64,000 nt of DNA, from NCBI GenBank assembly GCA_037447655.1, contig JBBHKE010001550.1, positions 44,529 to 108,528 of the forward strand, in the 5' to 3' direction. Positions 19,277-48,430 of the stretch are shown here, piece by piece. Position 1 is the first letter of the stretch, and each line of letters opens with the position of its first letter. A program made the position numbers and the translations under genes. Under the pieces are notes generated by a model that was not told the DNA's origin, searched no databases, and saw only the letters and a program-made list of their open reading frames with translations. The stretch is from Zygnema cylindricum (lineage: Eukaryota; Streptophyta; Zygnematophyceae; Zygnematales; Zygnemataceae).

Positions 19277-19286
19277 NNNNNNNNNN
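19277..19286. other. Assembly gap (10 N)
   Basis: Ten N bases. Copia-1 gag stops dead here and unrelated sequence follows, so the true gap length and even adjacency are unknown. Confidence 1.
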
Positions 19287-23088: not shown

Positions 23089-24156
23089 TGTAGAAATTGA
23101 TTGTTCCTTTTAAGTATTTTCTAGGTCTTAATTAAAATACAAAAAGAAGGCCAGGCAGTCTATCTCTAACTTCTCTCTCCAAACTCCCACACTGGTCGCA
23201 GTCACTGGGAAGTTCGAGTAGAAGCTACAGCCATGACTACCTTGGCTATCCAGATGTTTACGGGAAATGGATTAGTTTATATACCAATAAGTAGTTTATT
23301 TACTAAAGGGATAGATGCCGGAACTGGGATTTGATCCTGATACCTGCGGAAAGATAGGTAGCCGATAGCCGGTAGTCGTAGCCGTTAAGTCGAAGACTAA
23401 TGATATATGATATATGGTTTGATATTTATTTAAATAGTATAGCGTAGGATAATTCATTTAACTGCAACTGTTTACGGGATATATAGATCCAGTTATGTAA
23501 AAGTACGGATTACGGTATGTGTAAGAAACTAGTACTGCATATTTATTTCTTTAAAGAAAAAAAAACCGCGCAAGTATTTATGACGGCTACGATTGAAATC
23601 TGCATTCAATCGGACGGCCAGGAAAAAAGCCGAGATCGCAGAAGAGAATCTTGGCAGTTTGTGGACATCGCCACATCGGATGACAAGTGGAAAAATTACA
23701 TTAGATCGCGGCATCCCCGAGAATTACGGGACCGAACCCGTATATGACATGTGTTCACTTTTAGGCCATGTCGTACAGTTTCCGTACAGAAAGTACATCG
23801 GCAGCTGTACATTTATGTACGGAAATGTAATATGATTGGTTCCATACATCAGTAGATAGAGTTTGTGAGGGAGATAGGACTTAGAAAAAATTGGTAGATA
23901 GGACCCTCTCTCCTATAGAGCTTCTATACAAAATGTCAACTTTGACCCTCCATAACTCACTGCTCAGGGGAGCAAATTCAAAGATTCTTTTTGCTATCGA
24001 CTCACGGGAGTCTTGCCTTCAGGAGGTGAAGGTGGTCAATGTTTTTGTTTTCCAAGGTAACGGTTATTAGTGCTGAAAGACAAAGGGGTCAGGGGTATCC
24101 TAGAGGCTTCGTGTAAGCTGCTTACTTTGAGGTCCTATGGAGGTCTCAGAGTTGCA
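23089..24156 (+). repeat. Copia-3 5' LTR (1068 bp)
   Basis: Starts TGTAGAAATTGATTGTTCC, ends CTCAGAGTTGCA. The last 20 bases hold the ATG of gag (24137). An antisense tRNA-like module lies at 23314-23396. Confidence 0.92.
23314..23396 (-). other. tRNA-like module in Copia-3 5' LTR
   Basis: On the minus strand: D-arm-like GACTTAACGGCTACGAC, then B-box-like GGATCAAATCC (plus 23327-23337, one mismatch to consensus). It matches the relic at 658-731 in spacing and D-arm sequence. Confidence 0.5.
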
Positions 24157-25165
24157 GGTTATGGGCCCACCATCTAGGGTGCCCATATTTAATGGAGCTG
24201 GTTTCATATACTGGGAAAGTATGATGAAAGAAGCTCTATGTGAGAAACGGTTTTGGGGAATAGTGAGTGGACGCGTGACGCGTCCATATAGTCTTGGGAT
24301 ACCTCAAGGGTTTACAAGAGGAAGATTCACTAGAGATACAGATCCATCTTCAATGGAGAAGACAAAGGAAGATGAGGTGATGGACGAAGGAATGGAGAAT
24401 GAGACGACCACACCAATAGCAACTAGTTTGGCAATCATGTCACCGTTTTCAAGGAACGAGGAGAATATTATTGATACGTGGGACTTCAACAATATGGCCG
24501 CAAAGCACCTCATCCTCCGCCATCTTACTCAAGGACTTGCATGTCCTCATTTGTAGGTAGAAAGGGCATCCGATCTTTGGATGGCTCTCATAGAGATGAA
24601 CCGAAGTGGTACAATTCAGCAACAACAGTTGGCTGATTAGAAAGTTAATGAGTATGTATACAAAGGGGGGAAGATGTTAGATTTTTGCAATGAGCTTGCT
24701 ACACTTTTCATGGAGCTTGAGAGTGTTGGAAAATATTTTAGTGAAAAAGAAAAGGTTAACTGTCTACTGATGAAGTTACCTGATGAGTTCGAGAACATAG
24801 TCAACCGTGTGCAGGACTTACCAGACTCAAGGTGGATATCGAACTCAGTGGTAGGAATGATTCTCCTTCGGGAGAATACAATTAAGATCTGAAGGGGAGG
24901 AAAGAGTAGGCAAGCCTTGGCAGCTGGGACTGACTTGAGGAACAAGGATTCCCGAAGATCGGTCAGAAATTACAGAGGGGGGGAGCAGAAAAATCAGACT
25001 GACGAGTTCGGACCAAGGGCTCCCAAGGGTTTATGTCATTTCTGTAAGAAACCTGTGCACTATATGGCGGAGTGCACTAAACTAACCGAGTTTCAGTTAA
25101 AGGAGGGGCAGACTGGTGGAACACCGAGAGTAAAGAAAAAGGCCCTTGTGAAATAGGTACATGAG
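24137..25165 (+). pseudogene. Copia-3 gag
   Basis: The frame starts at 24137, 20 bases inside the LTR: MEVSELQVMGPPSRVPIFNG. Next come FIYWESMMKEALCEKRFWGI, NNMAAKHLILRHLTQGLACP, and a zinc knuckle CHFCKKPVHYMAEC (CX2CX4HX4C). In-frame stops lie near 24554, 24638, 24890 and 25154, without a frameshift. Confidence 0.9.
24157..24172 (+). promoter_or_regulatory. Primer-binding site of Copia-3
   Basis: GGTTATGGGCCCACCA directly abuts the LTR. It is 16 bases complementary to the anticodon stem-loop of plant initiator tRNA-Met, which implies priming by a tRNA cleaved in its anticodon loop, as shown for Drosophila copia. Confidence 0.88.
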
Positions 25166-28506: not shown

Positions 28507-29573
28507 TGTAGAAATTGATGGTTCCTTTTAAGTATTTTCTAGGTATAAATTATAATACAGAAAGAAGCCTAGACAGTCTATCTCTAACTTCTCTTTCCAA
28601 ACTCCCACATTTCTCACAGTCATTGAGAAGTTGGAGTAGAAGCTACAGCCATGGCTACCTTGGTTATCCAGAGGTTTACAAGAAATAGATTAGTTTATAT
28701 ACCAATAAGTAGTTTATTTACTAAAAGGATAGATGTCGCAACCGGGATTTGATCCTGATACCTGCTGAAAGATAGGTAGCCGGTAGCCGGTAGTCGTAGC
28801 CGTTAAGTCTAAGACTAATGATATATGATATATGGTTTGATATTTATTTAAATAGTATTACGTAGGATAATTAATTTAACTGCAACTGTTTACAAGATAC
28901 ATAGATCCAGTTATGTAAAAGTACGGATTACGCTATGTGTAAGAAACTAGTACCGCGCATTTATTTCTTTAACGAAACAAATACCGCGCAACTATTTATG
29001 ACGGCTACGATTGAAATTTGCATTCAATCGGACGGCCAAGAAGAAAGCAGAGATCGCAAAAGAGAATCTCGACGGTTGTGGTCATCGCCACATCGGATGA
29101 CACATGGCAAAATTACGTTGGATCGCGGCATCCCCAAGGATTACGTGACCGAACCCGGATATGACATGTGTCGACTTTTAGGCCATGTCGTACTGTTTCC
29201 GTACAGAAGTACATCGGCAGCTGTACTTTTATGCACAGAAGTGTTATATGATTGGTTGTGTACATCATTAGATAGAATTTGTGAGGGAGATAGGACTTAG
29301 AAAAAATTGGTAGATAGGACCCTCTCTCCTAGAGAGTTTCTTTACAAAAGGTCAACTTTGACCCTTTATAACTTACTGCTTTGGGGAGCAAATTCAGAGA
29401 TTTATTTTGCTATCGATTGAGGGGAGTCTTGCCTTCACAAAGGTGAAGGTGGTCAGAGTTTTTGTTTGCCACGGTGGCGGTTATTCGTGTTGAAAGACAA
29501 AAGGGTCAGGGTTATCCTAGAGGCTTCGTGTGAGCTGCTTACTCTGAGGTCCTATGGAGGTCTCATAGTTGCA
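28507..29573 (+). repeat. Copia-3 3' LTR (1067 bp)
   Basis: Starts TGTAGAAATTGATGG, ends CTCATAGTTGCA. It differs from the 5' LTR at many scattered sites, so the insertion is not recent. The antisense tRNA-like module recurs at 28731-28812 with B-box-like sequence at 28745-28755. Confidence 0.92.
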
Positions 29574-33479: not shown

Positions 33480-34457
33480 AAGTGCCTTTTTCTTTCCATC
33501 GGAAGAACCTCCTCCATGGTTCTCTTAGAGCCTCAGCTCCGATAGCTTGACACAATCCGCGATAAAGTGTCCCGGCTTTTTGCAAAAATTACATAGGCCC
33601 TTTGGGGGCCTCGCTCCTCCAAGCTGAACTCTTTTTCCTTTGTATGGTTTTTTCGGATCTGGTTTCCACATGTCTCCTCTGGCGGCTAGAGCTTGAACGC
33701 TCTTCCCTCCTCTCCTGATTTCAATTGTGTTCTCCTGCACAAGTATCATGCGGACCACTGTATTCCACTTCCATGAACTATCACTCATTTCGTGTACTCT
33801 ATACACTATATTTTCATACTCGTCGGGTAACTTCATGATAAGAGTGTTAACCTTCATCTTCATTATACCTGTCCATCCGGCACTCTCCATCTCCATATAC
33901 AAACAAGAAAGATCATTACAATAGTCTAACATCTTTCCCCCTTTGTAAGTATAATTTCACAATTTTTGGTCTGCCAACTGGAGCTTCTGAATTGTACCAG
34001 CTCTATAGTTCTCTATCAAACTCACCCACAACTCCTCAGCCTTGTAAACGTGAAGGTGAGGAGTTGGCAAAGCTTGTGTGAGGTGTCTCAGAACGACGTT
34101 CTTGGCCGCCATGTTGGTGTCTTCCCACATTTGAGTATCGGCCTCCACGGTCTTCACAATCGCCACTTTCGGGTGTCGTGGGAATAGGAGCAATAGGAGT
34201 AAAAGTTGTCTCCTTTTCTTTCACCTTTTTGGACACACTGCTGTCCCCATCATCTGCCTCCTCTGCTGGAGGAGATGTTGCTACAGAAAACCTTATTCTA
34301 CCAAATCCTGGTGGTGTTCCCTGAGGTGGACGTTTCACTTGTCCACTAACAATACCCCAGTATCTTTTTTCACACAAAGCTCCTATCATCATGGCTTCCC
34401 AATACATAAACCCCTGATCCATTGAAGATGGGCACCCTAGAGGGTGGGCCCATAACA
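33480..34457 (-). pseudogene. Copia-4 gag
   Basis: Starts at 34477 inside the LTR (MEDTELHVMGPPSRVPIFNG), shifts frame near 34420, and continues with RRSETPHTSFANSSPSRLQG-type and LDYCNDLSCLYMEMESAG blocks. The zinc knuckle is CNFCKKPGHFIADC, a perfect CX2CX4HX4C. Confidence 0.87.
34443..34457 (-). promoter_or_regulatory. Primer-binding site of Copia-4
   Basis: Minus strand TGTTATGGGCCCACC next to the LTR end TTGCA. The plus strand GGTGGGCCCATAAC is identical to the anticodon arm of plant initiator tRNA-Met. Confidence 0.85.
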
Positions 34458-35098
34458 TGCAATTCAGTGTCCTCCATTGGACTACAAAATACATGAAGCC
34501 TCTTGATAGTTATTAGCTAACCCACTTTCAATGGCAACCACTGCTACCCAAGAGAGAAGTAGACAATCTGACTATACCCTTGAGCAGCTTAGACTCCCCT
34601 AAGTCTGTAGGAAAAGGAATCTCTAAAAACGCCCAACCAAGCGATAAGTTATGAGCCAGTAAAAATGCCAATTTGTACAAACTCTCAAAGAGAGAGGTGA
34701 CTACTTACCAAATTTTTTTAAGTCGTGATTCCCTCAAATAACTCCTAACTACTAAAGTACGAACCAATCAGAATATTGTACCGTACCAAAAAGTACTACT
34801 GCCAGTGTACCTTTTGTTCGGCCTATGTACGACAAGGCTATTAAGCGGACGCGTGTCCATTTTTCACTCGTCCGTACGTTCCTCAAAATTCCCGCGACCA
34901 AATGTTATCTCTCCAAGTGGCGCCAGGTCATGCCACGTCACTAAACACCAAAGTGACCATTTCGGGATCCTGGCGATGATGTGCGCCGTCGAATATGAAC
35001 CAAAACGTAATCTCAGCCGTCATAAATACTTGTGTGATATTCGTTTCGCTGTCGAAACAAAATGCGTGGTATCTGTTTCAAAATAGTATCGTACTTTG
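34458..35098 (-). mobile_element. Copia-4 5' LTR, 3' part
   Basis: Ends ATGGAGGACACTGAATTGCA on the minus strand. It matches the Copia-3 LTR (for example 'aagtatttatgacggct'). It breaks at 35098 at the tandem LTR array and resumes at 43305. Confidence 0.88.
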
Positions 35099-36417
35099 TG
35101 TTGTTTTTTGAAAAGTTAGTTTCGTGCGAACACATCGTTTCGTGCGTACGCGATGTTTCGTGCGTACGCATTTACGCGATATATTGTGGAGGTTCGAAAG
35201 GATTTATGGATTGGGGAATTAAATGTACACATAAAATTAATGGAGTAATTGAGTGGCGCGAAATGTGAGAGGAAATGGACGGCGGATCGCGAAGCAATCC
35301 GACGTGAGATAATCGACGAAGATAAAATGGTACGTCGCACGTACGAAACATAATGCGACAGATGAAATTTATTACATGGGACGCCGCCGGTACGGAGCGT
35401 CGTATTTGACAGGTGTACTTTAAGTTGTCGCTTATTGCGACATTCATTTATCGAAAATGACGTGTACCTTAAATGCGACAAGGCGCATTTATGATGAAGT
35501 ACGTGATTTCGGTACGGACAGAATTGGATCGTACGAATTGATTTCGACAAGTTGGTCATGGTACACGTGGAGGGCGAATGTCGTCTACCGATATTTTCAA
35601 GGGATCTCATTATCTTTAATGACGCATTATCTAGTGGACCGTACATATGCGATGTCGGTTCACTACGTGGACTTATCGACAAGTGACTAAGCAAGTTGTC
35701 ACTTATGACGCGGATTTTTGGATGCGTCGGTGTAAATATTTGAAGCATCAATGTTTTGTCTTATTTGAATTAATGATTTAGTGTTGATTAAATAGTTATA
35801 TTTTACGTGATTAAAGAGGATATCGACACTTTAATTTATGTGTCGTATTTGCAGACAAGTGTACGCTTACGATTGCTTGACTTTCAGGTGTACGCTTACG
35901 ATTAGTTTGATTTAATGACAGTTACGTAATTTACGTTGGTTATTTTGACACTTAGTGATTTGTTAAAAGCTCACAAGTGTATATATAGATTTGAGCTTCA
36001 TTAGAATAAATAATCAATGCTGGTTAGTAAAGTGGGGACCGAAGATGTAGTATTTTAGGGTTGCCGATTAAGTCATGCACTTTGAATGATATAATGATTA
36101 TACTCTGATTATACTCTTGTTTATGTGTGATGCATTTGTGTGTTATTATTTATTTATGTTTTTATATATGTTTGATATGCATTGTTTATGCATTTGTCCT
36201 AGGGTTTGTTTATGTCGATTATTCCATCAAACCTTAGATGTTGTCATAGGGTTTATTTATGTTGATTATTCCATGAAACTCTAAATGTTGTTTGTTGCGT
36301 CTGTGTACGCATATGGAGGATGCATTTCATATGATTGTTCGTCGACCTATTTTTGCTTAGCTTTTTGCATGATAGTTTGGGTTGCTTCTGCGGTCTATTT
36401 TAGACCAAAGAACAACA
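35099..36417 (+). repeat. Array LTR 1
   Basis: Starts TGTTGTTTTTTGAAAAG, ends AAAGAACAACA. A TATATATAG box lies near 35977 and AATAAATAA near 36004, plausible promoter and poly(A) signals. A 211-codon frame is open on the minus strand at 35116-35751. Confidence 0.93.
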
Positions 36418-37392
36418 GGTTATGGGCCCACACCCCATCTATCATATGTTAGGTTAAGTCGATGTAAGTTTTTGTCACACGCATTGTAGCGGGTTAATAT
36501 TGTCCTTGCTGGTTGTATTGCAGTAATGGTGTCTGTGTACTCATGAGATCGGCCTTATCATAGTGTTGGTATGTGCCGAGTTTAATCTTGCATCGCCCCA
36601 AGGGTTAACTTAGTGACAGTGCCGAAATGTCTACCCTCAATGAAAATGATTTATTTTGAGAATCGATATTTTAGTTTTGAAAATAAATGTTTATTTTTAA
36701 TGAAACATTTCGAAATGTGGAGATTTGACATTTAGTGGAGAGATGTGGAAGGAGGAGTTTCGACGTTTGGGGGAGAGATCCGAAAGGTGGAGTTGTGGCA
36801 TTTGGAGAGATCCAAATTTTGTGGATCGATGATTGTTGAAAATTGGATTTGTAATGTAGATTTTGAGTTGTTGGAAATTTTTGGGAAATGTGATATTATT
36901 AGAATTTTTGGGAAAATACTATTTGTTAAGTGTATTTTTAATGGGAAATTTTGGGATCAGATTATTAAATGGAAAAGAAAAAGAAAAAAAAAAAAAAAAA
37001 ATTATTATTGAAATCTAGATTTGTTATAATGAGGTAGGAATTATTTGAGCGAGGATATATTATTAGTGTGACCTTTTGGCTTTAATTTTTAGTTGATTTG
37101 TGATATAATTTTGGGAATGTAAATCCGGATTTAGATATTGGAAGGAATTATTTTTGTTGTAATCCGAAAATGAAAATATATATTGTGTATTATGATATTT
37201 GGAAAGATGGTATGTGGAGGCAGCGGAAGCGATGGTGGAACAAGTGGGAAACTTCTGGCGGAGGCATTTGGTGGATACAGATGGAACAGACAGCAGGAAG
37301 TGACATTGATGACAGCTGATGACGTAGTTCCATGAAGTGTGACAGATGATGACGTGGCATCATGGATGCACGAAACTAAATTTTCGGGGGAG
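36418..37392 (+). mobile_element. Array internal region 1
   Basis: Begins with the primer site GGTTATGGGCCCAC (36418-36431). It is A/T-rich with an A-tract near 36970-37000. Two TGACGT motifs (37320-37325, 37350-37355) precede the polypurine tract at 37381-37392. The 88-codon frame at 36745-37011 has no recognisable domain and low-complexity composition. Confidence 0.92.
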
Positions 37393-38711
37393 TGTTGTTT
37401 TTTGAAAAGTTAGTTTCGTGCGAACACATCGTTTCGTGCGTACGCGATGTTTCGTGCGTACGCATTTACGCGATATATTGTGGAGGTTCGAAAGGATTTA
37501 TGGATTGGGGAATTAAATGTACACATAAAATTAATGGAGTAATTGAGTGGCGCGAAATGTGAGAGGAAATGGACGGCGGATCGCGAAGCAATCCGACGTG
37601 AGATAATCGACGAAGATAAAATGGTACGTCGCACGTACGAAACATAATGCGACAGATGAAATTTATTACATGGGACGCCGCCGGTACGGAGCGTCGTATT
37701 TGACAGGTGTACTTTAAGTTGTCGCTTATTGCGACATTCATTTATCGAAAATGACGTGTACCTTAAATGCGACAAGGCGCATTTATGATGAAGTACGTGA
37801 TTTCGGTACGGACAGAATTGGATCGTACGAATTGATTTCGACAAGTTGGTCATGGTACACGTGGAGGGCGAATGTCGTCTACCGATATTTTCAAGGGATC
37901 TCATTATCTTTAATGACGCATTATCTAGTGGACCGTACATATGCGATGTCGGTTCACTACGTGGACTTATCGACAAGTGACTAAGCAAGTTGTCACTTAT
38001 GACGCGGATTTTTGGATGCGTCGGTGTAAATATTTGAAGCATCAATGTTTTGTCTTATTTGAATTAATGATTTAGTGTTGATTAAATAGTTATATTTTAC
38101 GTGATTAAAGAGGATATCGACACTTTAATTTATGTGTCGTATTTGCAGACAAGTGTACGCTTACGATTGCTTGACTTTCAGGTGTACGCTTACGATTAGT
38201 TTGATTTAATGACAGTTACGTAATTTACGTTGGTTATTTTGACACTTAGTGATTTGTTAAAAGCTCACAAGTGTATATATAGATTTGAGCTTCATTAGAA
38301 TAAATAATCAATGCTGGTTAGTAAAGTGGGGACCGAAGATGTAGTATTTTAGGGTTGCCGATTAAGTCATGCACTTTGAATGATATAATGATTATACTCT
38401 GATTATACTCTTGTTTATGTGTGATGCATTTGTGTGTTATTATTTATTTATGTTTTTATATATGTTTGATATGCATTGTTTATGCATTTGTCCTAGGGTT
38501 TGTTTATGTCGATTATTCCATCAAACCTTAGATGTTGTCATAGGGTTTATTTATGTTGATTATTCCATGAAACTCTAAATGTTGTTTGTTGCGTCTGTGT
38601 ACGCATATGGAGGATGCATTTCATATGATTGTTCGTCGACCTATTTTTGCTTAGCTTTTTGCATGATAGTTTGGGTTGCTTCTGCGGTCTATTTTAGACC
38701 AAAGAACAACA
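37393..38711 (+). repeat. Array LTR 2
   Basis: Translations of its shadow frames are identical to those of LTR 1, and no difference was seen by eye. Confidence 0.93.
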
Positions 38712-39686
38712 GGTTATGGGCCCACACCCCATCTATCATATGTTAGGTTAAGTCGATGTAAGTTTTTGTCACACGCATTGTAGCGGGTTAATATTGTCCT
38801 TGCTGGTTGTATTGCAGTAATGGTGTCTGTGTACTCATGAGATCGGCCTTATCATAGTGTTGGTATGTGCCGAGTTTAATCTTGCATCGCCCCAAGGGTT
38901 AACTTAGTGACAGTGCCGAAATGTCTACCCTCAATGAAAATGATTTATTTTGAGAATCGATATTTTAGTTTTGAAAATAAATGTTTATTTTTAATGAAAC
39001 ATTTCGAAATGTGGAGATTTGACATTTAGTGGAGAGATGTGGAAGGAGGAGTTTCGACGTTTGGGGGAGAGATCCGAAAGGTGGAGTTGTGGCATTTGGA
39101 GAGATCCAAATTTTGTGGATCGATGATTGTTGAAAATTGGATTTGTAATGTAGATTTTGAGTTGTTGGAAATTTTTGGGAAATGTGATATTATTAGAATT
39201 TTTGGGAAAATACTATTTGTTAAGTGTATTTTTAATGGGAAATTTTGGGATCAGATTATTAAATGGAAAAGAAAAAGAAAAAAAAAAAAAAAAAATTATT
39301 ATTGAAATCTAGATTTGTTATAATGAGGTAGGAATTATTTGAGCGAGGATATATTATTAGTGTGACCTTTTGGCTTTAATTTTTAGTTGATTTGTGATAT
39401 AATTTTGGGAATGTAAATCCGGATTTAGATATTGGAAGGAATTATTTTTGTTGTAATCCGAAAATGAAAATATATATTGTGTATTATGATATTTGGAAAG
39501 ATGGTATGTGGAGGCAGCGGAAGCGATGGTGGAACAAGTGGGAAACTTCTGGCGGAGGCATTTGGTGGATACAGATGGAACAGACAGCAGGAAGTGACAT
39601 TGATGACAGCTGATGACGTAGTTCCATGAAGTGTGACAGATGATGACGTGGCATCATGGATGCACGAAACTAAATTTTCGGGGGAG
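38712..39686 (+). mobile_element. Array internal region 2
   Basis: Same landmarks as internal region 1, with the primer site at 38712-38725 and the same A-tract. Confidence 0.92.
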
Positions 39687-41005
39687 TGTTGTTTTTTGAA
39701 AAGTTAGTTTCGTGCGAACACATCGTTTCGTGCGTACGCGATGTTTCGTGCGTACGCATTTACGCGATATATTGTGGAGGTTCGAAAGGATTTATGGATT
39801 GGGGAATTAAATGTACACATAAAATTAATGGAGTAATTGAGTGGCGCGAAATGTGAGAGGAAATGGACGGCGGATCGCGAAGCAATCCGACGTGAGATAA
39901 TCGACGAAGATAAAATGGTACGTCGCACGTACGAAACATAATGCGACAGATGAAATTTATTACATGGGACGCCGCCGGTACGGAGCGTCGTATTTGACAG
40001 GTGTACTTTAAGTTGTCGCTTATTGCGACATTCATTTATCGAAAATGACGTGTACCTTAAATGCGACAAGGCGCATTTATGATGAAGTACGTGATTTCGG
40101 TACGGACAGAATTGGATCGTACGAATTGATTTCGACAAGTTGGTCATGGTACACGTGGAGGGCGAATGTCGTCTACCGATATTTTCAAGGGATCTCATTA
40201 TCTTTAATGACGCATTATCTAGTGGACCGTACATATGCGATGTCGGTTCACTACGTGGACTTATCGACAAGTGACTAAGCAAGTTGTCACTTATGACGCG
40301 GATTTTTGGATGCGTCGGTGTAAATATTTGAAGCATCAATGTTTTGTCTTATTTGAATTAATGATTTAGTGTTGATTAAATAGTTATATTTTACGTGATT
40401 AAAGAGGATATCGACACTTTAATTTATGTGTCGTATTTGCAGACAAGTGTACGCTTACGATTGCTTGACTTTCAGGTGTACGCTTACGATTAGTTTGATT
40501 TAATGACAGTTACGTAATTTACGTTGGTTATTTTGACACTTAGTGATTTGTTAAAAGCTCACAAGTGTATATATAGATTTGAGCTTCATTAGAATAAATA
40601 ATCAATGCTGGTTAGTAAAGTGGGGACCGAAGATGTAGTATTTTAGGGTTGCCGATTAAGTCATGCACTTTGAATGATATAATGATTATACTCTGATTAT
40701 ACTCTTGTTTATGTGTGATGCATTTGTGTGTTATTATTTATTTATGTTTTTATATATGTTTGATATGCATTGTTTATGCATTTGTCCTAGGGTTTGTTTA
40801 TGTCGATTATTCCATCAAACCTTAGATGTTGTCATAGGGTTTATTTATGTTGATTATTCCATGAAACTCTAAATGTTGTTTGTTGCGTCTGTGTACGCAT
40901 ATGGAGGATGCATTTCATATGATTGTTCGTCGACCTATTTTTGCTTAGCTTTTTGCATGATAGTTTGGGTTGCTTCTGCGGTCTATTTTAGACCAAAGAA
41001 CAACA
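39687..41005 (+). repeat. Array LTR 3
   Basis: Indistinguishable by eye from LTRs 1 and 2. Confidence 0.93.
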
Positions 41006-41980
41006 GGTTATGGGCCCACACCCCATCTATCATATGTTAGGTTAAGTCGATGTAAGTTTTTGTCACACGCATTGTAGCGGGTTAATATTGTCCTTGCTGG
41101 TTGTATTGCAGTAATGGTGTCTGTGTACTCATGAGATCGGCCTTATCATAGTGTTGGTATGTGCCGAGTTTAATCTTGCATCGCCCCAAGGGTTAACTTA
41201 GTGACAGTGCCGAAATGTCTACCCTCAATGAAAATGATTTATTTTGAGAATCGATATTTTAGTTTTGAAAATAAATGTTTATTTTTAATGAAACATTTCG
41301 AAATGTGGAGATTTGACATTTAGTGGAGAGATGTGGAAGGAGGAGTTTCGACGTTTGGGGGAGAGATCCGAAAGGTGGAGTTGTGGCATTTGGAGAGATC
41401 CAAATTTTGTGGATCGATGATTGTTGAAAATTGGATTTGTAATGTAGATTTTGAGTTGTTGGAAATTTTTGGGAAATGTGATATTATTAGAATTTTTGGG
41501 AAAATACTATTTGTTAAGTGTATTTTTAATGGGAAATTTTGGGATCAGATTATTAAATGGAAAAGAAAAAGAAAAAAAAAAAAAAAAAATTATTATTGAA
41601 ATCTAGATTTGTTATAATGAGGTAGGAATTATTTGAGCGAGGATATATTATTAGTGTGACCTTTTGGCTTTAATTTTTAGTTGATTTGTGATATAATTTT
41701 GGGAATGTAAATCCGGATTTAGATATTGGAAGGAATTATTTTTGTTGTAATCCGAAAATGAAAATATATATTGTGTATTATGATATTTGGAAAGATGGTA
41801 TGTGGAGGCAGCGGAAGCGATGGTGGAACAAGTGGGAAACTTCTGGCGGAGGCATTTGGTGGATACAGATGGAACAGACAGCAGGAAGTGACATTGATGA
41901 CAGCTGATGACGTAGTTCCATGAAGTGTGACAGATGATGACGTGGCATCATGGATGCACGAAACTAAATTTTCGGGGGAG
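41006..41980 (+). mobile_element. Array internal region 3
   Basis: Same landmarks as internal regions 1 and 2. Confidence 0.92.
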
Positions 41981-43299
41981 TGTTGTTTTTTGAAAAGTTA
42001 GTTTCGTGCGAACACATCGTTTCGTGCGTACGCGATGTTTCGTGCGTACGCATTTACGCGATATATTGTGGAGGTTCGAAAGGATTTATGGATTGGGGAA
42101 TTAAATGTACACATAAAATTAATGGAGTAATTGAGTGGCGCGAAATGTGAGAGGAAATGGACGGCGGATCGCGAAGCAATCCGACGTGAGATAATCGACG
42201 AAGATAAAATGGTACGTCGCACGTACGAAACATAATGCGACAGATGAAATTTATTACATGGGACGCCGCCGGTACGGAGCGTCGTATTTGACAGGTGTAC
42301 TTTAAGTTGTCGCTTATTGCGACATTCATTTATCGAAAATGACGTGTACCTTAAATGCGACAAGGCGCATTTATGATGAAGTACGTGATTTCGGTACGGA
42401 CAGAATTGGATCGTACGAATTGATTTCGGCAAGTTGGTCATGGTACACGTGGAGGGCGAATGTCGTCTACCGATATTTTCAAGGGATCTCATTATCTTTA
42501 ATGACGCATTATCTAGTGGACCGTACATATGCGATGTCGGTTCACTACGTGGACTTATCGACAAGTGACTAAGCAAGTTGTCACTTATGACGCGGATTTT
42601 TGGATGCGTCGGTGTAAATATTTGAAGCATCAATGTTTTGTCTTATTTGAATTAATGATTTAGTGTTGATTAAATAGTTATATTTTACGTGATTAAAGAG
42701 GATATCGACACTTTAATTTATGTGTCGTATTTGCAGACAAGTGTACGCTTACGATTGCTTGACTTTCAGGTGTACGCTTACGATTAGTTTGATTTAATGA
42801 CAGTTACGTAATTTACGTTGGTTATTTTGACACTTAGTGATTTGTTAAAAGCTCACAAGTGTATATATAGATTTGAGCTTCATTAGAATAAATAATCAAT
42901 GCTGGTTAGTAAAGTGGGGACCGAAGATGTAGTATTTTAGGGTTGCCGATTAGGTCATGCACTTTGAATGATATAATGATTATACTCTGATTATACTCTT
43001 GTTTATGTGTGATGCATTTGTGTGTTATTATTTATTTATGTTTTTATATATGTTTGATATGCATTGTTTATGCATTTGTCCTAGGGTTTGTTTATGTCGA
43101 TTATTCCATCAAACCTTAGATGTTGTCATAGGGTTTATTTATGTTGATTATTCCATGAAACTCTAAATGTTGTTTGTTGCGTCTGTGTACGCATATGGAG
43201 GATGCATTTCATATGATTGTTCGTCGACCTATTTTTGCTTAGCTTTTTGCATGATAGTTTGGGTTGCTTCTGCGGTCTATTTTAGACCAAAGAACAACA
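41981..43299 (+). repeat. Array LTR 4
   Basis: Differs from LTRs 1-3 at two seen sites, both G where the others have A (42429 and 42953). It ends AACAACA, followed by the target duplication CTTTG. Confidence 0.93.
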
Positions 43300-43304
43300 C
43301 TTTG

Positions 43305-43701
43305 TACTTTTACAAAACTGTATCTATGCATGCCGTATACAGTTTCATTTGAATGAATTCGTTCACTCCTAAATAAATATATATCTATAATACCCTTATA
43401 GCATTTAGCATTGGTCCTAGTCTAATAGGATAAAGCTAACAGTTACCAGCTAACATGACGGACGGCAGGTACCACGATCAAGTCTTGGGTTTCGTCAAGC
43501 ATCTTTTTAGTAACCTAGTAAAAATAACTGCCTATTAAACTAAGGGTGCCATGGTTCAACCACCCTCTCTATTCTTTAGTGACTACAACAATTATGGGGG
43601 CTAGAGAGAGGAGGTGGAAGCAGGCTGTCCGTACTTTTCTTTTGCTTTTATACCAACATATTTATACCTAGAAAATACTCTAAAAATCTATTAATTTCAA
43701 C
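43305..43701 (-). mobile_element. Copia-4 5' LTR, 5' part
   Basis: Minus strand starts TGTTGAAATTAATAG at 43701 and continues with 'gtattttctaggtataaat' as in Copia-3. With 34458-35098 it makes an LTR of about 1038 bp. Confidence 0.85.
43418..43495 (+). other. tRNA-like module, antisense in Copia-4 LTR
   Basis: Plus strand: D-arm-like TAGTCTAATAGGATAAAGC, then T-arm-like CGATCAAGTCTTGGG after about 40 bases. Same orientation and place as in the other LTRs of the family. Confidence 0.5.
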
Positions 43702-47360: not shown

Positions 47361-48430
47361 AGTTATGGGCCCACCCTTTAGGATCCCCATTTTGAATGGA
47401 ACAGGGTTTATTTATTGGCAAACCATGATGAGGGTGTATTGTTTGAGAAACGACTATGGGGCATTGTGAGTAGTTGTGTGCGTTGGCCATTCGCAAAAAT
47501 GGGAGTTCCACCAGGATTTGCAGGATCTGGATTGAAAAGAGGATCTGCGGGGGCAATGTTTAAAGAGGATGTTAGAGAAAGCATTGTGTCGGACATACAA
47601 GGAAGAATAAGGGGAAGGAGAAACTCACACCGATTGCTACTCGATCGGTTTCGGTAGCAGATGTTCAGAAAACCGAGGCAAATGATACTAAAATTTGGGA
47701 TTTCAACAACACTGTGACGACTCATTTTATTTTCGGGCGCCTCACTCAAGCAGTGGCTACACCTTATCTTTATGTGGACAAGCGGACGAGTTGTTGGAGG
47801 CTCTTATCAACATTTACAAGAGTGGTACGATCCAGCAACAGAGGCTGGTTGATCAGAAAATATAGGCAATTGAAAACAAAGGGGGAAAGATGATAGACTT
47901 TTGTAATGACTTTTCCGAGTTATTAATGAAGTTGGAGAGTGCAAGGAAAAGGGAGACCGAGAAAGAGAAGGTGAATAACTTGTTGATGAAACTCCGAGAT
48001 GACTATGAAAATATTGTTAACAAAGTTCAAGATTTGCCAGATCATCGATGGATCTAGAACTCTGTTGTGGGGATCATTTTGGTTCCAGAAAGCACAATTG
48101 AGATTCGGAGAGGAGGAAAGGGTGTTAATCATTAGCTGCTGGAACTAGCTAGGGAGATAATGATTGCAAAATACCTTATAAAAACGTTGGTGGAGGAGGA
48201 AGAGGAAACCAATCGCACGGATCTAGATCGAGGCCTTTGAAGAGGCTCTGTCACATTTGTAAGAAGTCGAGACATTAGATGGCTTAGTGTACTAAATTGA
48301 CATAGTTGAGATCGAAGGATGAGCGGATTAGAAAACCTCCTGCATGAAAGATGAAGGCATTTGTGGCAACACAAGTCATGGGAGAGTGTTTCGATGAGGA
48401 CGGTAGAGAACTCCTCAACGAGGAGCTGGA
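47341..48430 (+). pseudogene. Copia-5 gag
   Basis: MEVTKLKVMGPPFRIPILNG starts in the LTR, followed after frameshifts by KRLWGIVSSCVRWPFAKM, DFNNTVTTHFIFGRLTQAVA and MIDFCNDFSELLMKLESARK. The zinc knuckle region reads CHICKKSRH with stops. It is strongly broken. Confidence 0.82.
47361..47375 (+). promoter_or_regulatory. Primer-binding site of Copia-5
   Basis: AGTTATGGGCCCACC: 14 bases complementary to the initiator tRNA-Met anticodon arm, directly after the LTR. Confidence 0.83.

Follow-up and report, generated by a model that had tools for sequence, protein, structure and literature searches.

A four-LTR retrotransposon array inside one target duplication in Zygnema cylindricum and its probable growth after insertion

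LTR retrotransposons with more than two LTRs have been described from several plants. Arrays of TA-TRIM elements such as Zma-SMART comprise, for example, three LTRs with two internal regions or five LTRs with four internal regions, are flanked by 5-bp target duplications and were validated by PCR and sequencing (PMC4717578), and among 89 intact elements of the maize TRIM Wukong eight carry three LTRs, five carry four, and two carry six and seven, most elements having target duplications and unequal crossing-over being suggested as their origin (PMC4528315). Tandem LTR elements are described as common in rice and are also reported from Arabidopsis, almond and cotton, and the authors leave it open whether the arrays stem from complex insertion or from recombination (PMC11899658). 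Elements with three or more LTRs have likewise been noted in Arabidopsis (PMC5379124), and template switching was inferred, from the target duplication and the alike outer LTRs, for complex elements of Triticeae, of rice and of maize (PMC1950507). An earlier note on the DNA analysed here knew of no commonly described family existing as a three-unit multimer with a single clean target duplication, a view that must be given up in view of the passages cited, since published TRIM arrays have three to seven LTRs, many of them with a clean duplication, and tandem elements are found in rice and three other plants. The multi-LTR structure itself is already known in plants, and the new part is an informative mutation history; in a weak search of the open-access literature we found no published use of shared-derived sites in middle LTRs to choose between routes of origin.

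Anatomy, target site and class of the element

The window, by which we mean the whole stretch of 64,000 nucleotides that was analysed, contains a multi-LTR array at 35099-43299 in which four LTRs of 1319 bp alternate with three internal regions of 975 bp at a period of 2294 bp, and which is enclosed by a single 5-bp target duplication (Table 1). This anatomy and the single target site are observed directly, and the period, the four LTR starts, the CTTTG on both outer sides and the separate primer site and polypurine tract of every internal region, all of which the earlier note had listed, were reproduced at the same coordinates. The LTRs have the termini TGTTG..CAACA, and each internal region opens with GGTTATGGGCCCAC immediately 3' of the LTR and closes with TTTTCGGGGGAG, primer site and polypurine tract being the same in all three. 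Direct LTRs, TG..CA ends, primer site, polypurine tract and short target duplication identify an LTR retrotransposon, and the alternation of LTRs and internal regions within one target duplication identifies a tandem, or multi-LTR, insertion. The three LTR-INT units show zero differences over 2294 bp each, and LTR4 differs from LTR1-3 at two bases only, LTR positions 449 and 973. Self-comparison of the window (matches of at least 90 bases) gave a 5908-base match at 99.97% identity, which is not due to chance, and no further copy of the element. Nested insertion was rejected, since the units are exact and run into one another at the LTR ends.

Table 1. Features of the array and of the older repeat that it interrupts (window positions)
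Feature	Position	Strand
Left part of the interrupted older copia LTR (aligned stretch)	35015..35098	-
Left target duplication, CTTTG	35094..35098	
LTR1, A at LTR positions 449 and 973	35099..36417	+
Primer site 1, 14-base complement of iMet tRNA anticodon arm	36418..36431	+
Internal region 1, no Pfam match in ORF tested	36418..37392	+
Polypurine tract 1, TTTTCGGGGGAG	37381..37392	+
LTR2, same sequence as LTR1	37393..38711	+
Primer site 2	38712..38725	+
Internal region 2, same sequence as internal region 1	38712..39686	+
Polypurine tract 2	39675..39686	+
LTR3, same sequence as LTR1	39687..41005	+
Primer site 3	41006..41019	+
Internal region 3, same sequence as internal region 1	41006..41980	+
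Polypurine tract 3	41969..41980	+
LTR4, G at LTR positions 449 and 973 (window 42429, 42953)	41981..43299	+
Right target duplication, CTTTG	43300..43304	
Right part of the interrupted older copia LTR (aligned stretch)	43305..43359	-

When the flanks are joined over one CTTTG they align to window 28869-29006 (107/141 identities) and 23451-23588 (106/142), two paralogous empty sites, and since both alignments are gap-free for 12 bases to the left and 55 bases to the right of the junction, the insertion entered an older copia LTR-like repeat at one point. A search with the left flank found no second near-identical place among the 40 of 9589 candidates scored, the next best having 92% identity over 797 bases, and a second haplotype of this flank may have escaped the search.

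Over 14 bases the primer site is perfectly complementary to the initiator Met tRNA anticodon arm encoded by iMet-like genes of the same genome. An iMet pattern allowing at most two mismatches matches this genome at 13 places (reversed control, 0 matches), and all 5 exact places contain GTGGTGGGCCCATAACCC, the very stretch given as iMet probe or template in two papers. Priming by an internal segment of initiator Met tRNA is that of Ty1/copia hemivirus-like elements, and the array element is copia-like, with a half-tRNA(iMet) primer site. A copia-type gag-pol is however lacking, since neither of the two unit ORFs tested matches a Pfam family, whereby a coding element was rejected, and the longest ORF of a unit (among ORFs of at least 40 aa) has 211 aa and lies on the opposite strand of the LTR. 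The element is therefore most likely non-autonomous, a life style that we infer from these ORFs, and if it belongs to Ty1/copia it is at best a non-autonomous relative. The same kind of primer site occurs in old copia-like stretches of the window at 24157, at 47363 and near 34446, the last of these on the other strand; that these stretches are related to a helper of the array element is a guess. A different element in the window has a reverse transcriptase ORF that is 27-41% identical to sequences from, among others, plants, green algae, oomycetes and a yeast (best 120 of 565 matches).

LARDs are non-coding elements with LTRs and an internal region of several kb each, and retrozymes carry a hammerhead ribozyme within the LTR. 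The element is not a LARD, its LTR being 1319 bp and its internal region 975 bp, nor a retrozyme, as no Rfam family reaches its gathering score anywhere in the window, by which Cassandra and other known RNA content were rejected as well. Nor is it a TRIM, a class defined as non-coding and below 1,000 bp (PMC4717578), since the element is non-coding but its predicted LTR-INT-LTR monomer (two LTRs and one internal region) would measure 3613 bp. The internal/LTR junction pattern had no match in viral contigs, a collection that may omit records from the genome to which the window belongs.

The family across the genome

In the 352.8 Mb and 2689 contigs searched, the 26-base LTR/internal junction occurs 618 times at up to three mismatches (301 and 317 by strand), and its reversed control matches once and twice by strand. 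The first 100 of these 618 junctions, all exact, were collapsed by eye into 81 loci, and at least 10 loci, the window locus included, are arrays in the sense of having at least two junctions on one strand at array spacing, five of them (C46, C55, C339, C1117 and C1266) being known from junction spacing alone. The share of 10/81 is a lower bound, because C776, listed once, is an array with a differing second junction. The search for further LTR-INT-LTR-INT junctions that the earlier note had proposed thus bears out that arrays recur.

Ten arrays were examined in sequence, and exact 5-bp target duplications were found at eight of them. C870, C1285, C776, C1739, C1617 and C1571 have three LTRs each, the window array has four, C262 five, C1157 eight and C1707 five or more. 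The duplication of C1157, AAAAC, was read from the flanks with a TA-ending LTR taken into account; at C1739, which sits within a single LTR of its own family, 4/5 duplication bases match, and C1707 has no clean ends and yielded no target duplication. Two-LTR copies of the family have exact duplications at all nine loci compared (L019 was skipped and other incomplete loci left out), as do solo LTRs in 6/6 compared out of eight solo or partial LTR loci. Since solo LTRs carry exact duplications, LTR-LTR exchange occurs in the family, although solos also form by other exchanges.

Mutation history and origin of the array

We consider it likely, with a probability of roughly 0.78, that a non-coding LTR retrotransposon integrated once and that the array then grew in place by unequal crossing-over. 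One element without coding capacity, an LTR-INT-LTR of about 3.6 kb primed internally by iMet tRNA, would have integrated once and thereby created the CTTTG duplication, after which its 5' LTR would have acquired two G-to-A changes. An unequal crossing-over left of position 449 would then have produced 5'-type LTRs throughout with the old 3' LTR at the end, and a further exchange the third unit; exchanges within the insertion would not alter the outer target duplication. The number of exchanges, and crossover rather than another copying route, are what we infer here, the window array having two informative sites only.

The polarity of these two sites was read from a 51-row LTR alignment that leaves out partial LTRs, in which the outgroup has G at LTR position 973 in 28/28 loci and at 449 in 23/28 (A in three, C in one and T in one), and from a BLAST count over the fetched LTR copies, which gave G at 973 in 73/73 and at 449 in 48/54, the remaining six having A. 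By this directly observed polarity LTR4 is ancestral at both positions and LTR1-3 share derived A. In one cycle of reverse transcription both outer LTRs are made from the same template parts and are identical at insertion (PMC1950507), yet LTR1 and LTR4 now differ at two sites; since LTR1-3 share the derived A, the most likely reading is that LTR1 served as the source of LTR2 and LTR3 once the element was in place. The earlier note had left two origins open, and of these unequal crossing-over is favoured by the derived A shared by LTR1-3 and by the site order at C870 described below, and the one-step concatemer is disfavoured at this locus. If 7e-9 to 1.3e-8 substitutions per site are assumed to accrue each year, the LTR1-LTR4 difference corresponds to about 58,000-108,000 years and the zero change among units to a last growth at most about 33,000-62,000 years ago, both figures being rough.

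The sister arrays allow the same question to be asked at other loci. At C870 LTR1 is the odd one at five left sites (37, 468, 511, 523 and 546), where LTR2 equals LTR3, and LTR3 is the odd one in seven right events (983, 1073-1074, 1135, 1180, 1193, 1207 and 1235), where LTR1 equals LTR2; there is no LTR2-only site, the internal regions are without differences, and seven sites are shared-derived. The middle LTR of C870 is chimeric, with the 3' type in its left part and the 5' type in its right part, which is the order predicted by crossing-over. C1285 and C1571 have the same site order, apart from an LTR1 indel at 952 that breaks it in C1285, and an order test limited to the three arrays having both kinds of site gave 1 in 792, 7 in 120 and 1 in 21 for C870, C1285 and C1571 respectively, with a combined P of 3e-4. 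Furthermore, of 40 events over five three-LTR arrays 5 set the middle LTR apart from the other two (P 0.0025), a count that leaves out the window, C776, C262, C1157 and C1707, and at C1617 a derived TA start is common to LTR2 and LTR3, a second site there being less clear. Growth after insertion is hence pointed to at C870 also, and more weakly at C1571, C1617 and C1285. It should be mentioned that site 788 of C1285, where LTR2 has the ancestral state and both outer LTRs, LTR1 and LTR3, the derived one, speaks against simple growth, that the single shared-derived site of this array, 573, is polarised by 23/28 loci only, and that the internal regions of C1571 are 10 substitutions and an 11-base gap apart, exceeding its LTR differences, a divergence that is not predicted by simple sister exchange and runs against it. 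At C1707 the identity of internal regions 2-4 and the three sites at which internal region 1 departs from them suggest that one unit multiplied later, but the last LTR of this array differs at 45 bases. C1739 and C262 offer too few differences for the routes to be told apart.

It is unlikely that the assembly was expanded at the window locus, so that the true locus would hold one LTR-INT-LTR copy (or two units) and the repeat was walked too often. Exact units and the AAAG pattern of the four LTRs are what a false walk would leave, a scaffold gap is present in the window, though 16 kb away, and because such a walk could duplicate units without error, or even produce a chimera in a middle LTR, an artefact is compatible with the window array taken by itself. 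C1285 and C1571 however carry private changes and are hence no plain assembler copies, and between the units of C1157 there are 241 indel events, 230 of them single-base, versus 36 substitutions, summed over pairs with unit 3 and LTR4 left out, a profile which suggests long-read consensus error and units that were read apart there. Evidence from these three loci supports arrays in the family and says nothing on the unit number at the window locus.

A head-to-tail concatemer, preformed by template switching, run-through RNA or circular DNA and inserted in one event, seems quite improbable for the window array. One clean target duplication encloses all units, as such an insertion would leave it, and the route has been proposed for complex elements in Triticeae (PMC1950507), but it predicts that LTR1 equals LTR4 at insertion and that later changes are private, whereas LTR1-3 share two derived changes, and the probability that two random differences over 8201 bp both fall in LTR4 is 0.026. 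Within the family the concatemer fits C776, where the outer LTRs are near-alike (2 substitutions and 11 one-base gaps) and the right half of the middle LTR and the second internal region derive from another member of the family, 53 substitutions being confined to the middle LTR and 1 of them falling within the first 600 columns. Judged from this mosaic C776 looks like a two-parent dimer, and it fits the template-switch model or a related cDNA recombined into a resident LTR, so that more than one route appears to be at work in the family, a second one beside growth after insertion. The homogenisation of an older array or concatemer by gene conversion of LTR1 into LTR2 and LTR3 is very improbable, for although it likewise yields shared derived sites and identical units, and although a partly foreign unit of C1157 resembles a conversion tract, it must cover all of units 2 and 3 including the internal regions and yet spare LTR4, and no remnant of older differences is seen in the array.

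Comparison with known multi-LTR elements

One may tentatively suppose that the family regularly grows arrays in place, its long, near-identical LTRs around a short non-coding core giving rise to copy-number loci and perhaps to new satellite DNA, and that such arrays offer a general test of growth versus concatemer. Shared-derived sites and site order in middle LTRs would then separate post-insertion growth from preformed concatemers, which the target duplication alone cannot do. The polarity and site-order tests run on an ordinary assembly. They bear on the origin of multi-LTR insertions, which a recent survey calls open (PMC11899658), and on the use of one target duplication as a sign of a preformed complex element (PMC1950507), since a duplication of this kind should also remain when LTRs of a single insertion recombine with each other.

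As far as the cited passages describe them, the TA-TRIM arrays of the Zma-SMART kind resemble the present family in being non-coding LTR elements in arrays with 5-bp target duplications, but TRIMs are below 1,000 bp whereas the monomer here would be about 3.6 kb with LTRs of 1319 bp (PMC4717578). Wukong likewise forms multi-LTR arrays, of up to seven LTRs, and differs in being a TRIM (PMC4528315). Cassandra shares the long arrays of LTRs alternating with internal domains but has a 5S-like sequence, the window having no Rfam match at gathering score (PMC7215508). The tandem elements of rice have the same LTR-INT-LTR-INT-LTR structure in one short duplication and are polymorphic in unit number, but are mostly gypsy elements with coding domains (PMC11899658). 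The complex insertions of Angela, Squiq and Opie also hold three LTRs in one 5-bp duplication, and C776 resembles the model proposed for them (PMC1950507); by our reasoning, however, exchange inside one insertion would leave the same signs.

Window features outside the array and in its first LTR

The half-tRNA(iMet) primer site, complementary over 14 bases to the anticodon arm of the initiator methionine tRNA, is found in the array, and sites of this kind also occur in three older copia-like stretches of the window, the one at 34446 being on the other strand. In the first LTR of the array, the observed/expected ratio for CpG is 1.81, higher than in the flanks (0.64 and 0.95), and a row of ten N elsewhere in the window is probably a scaffold gap.

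Positions of these features in the window
Feature	Position	Strand
N run	19277-19286	
Primer site, older stretch	24157	
Primer site, older stretch	34446	other
First LTR of array	35099-36417	+
Primer site, older stretch	47363	

Other arrays of the family

The array C1157 (L046-L047) holds eight LTRs and seven internal regions in about 17 kb, and one of its units is partly foreign, the foreign part starting inside the LTR and reaching into the internal region. Three identical units of C1707 (L016-L017) adjoin a first internal region that differs at three sites, and the divergent last LTR is fused to a further internal fragment. The single LTR into which the array C1739 (L012) was inserted belongs to this family too and is oriented the other way. 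The outer LTRs of C776 (L011) are near-identical, while the right half of the middle LTR and one internal region derive from another family member; this array looks like a two-parent dimer.
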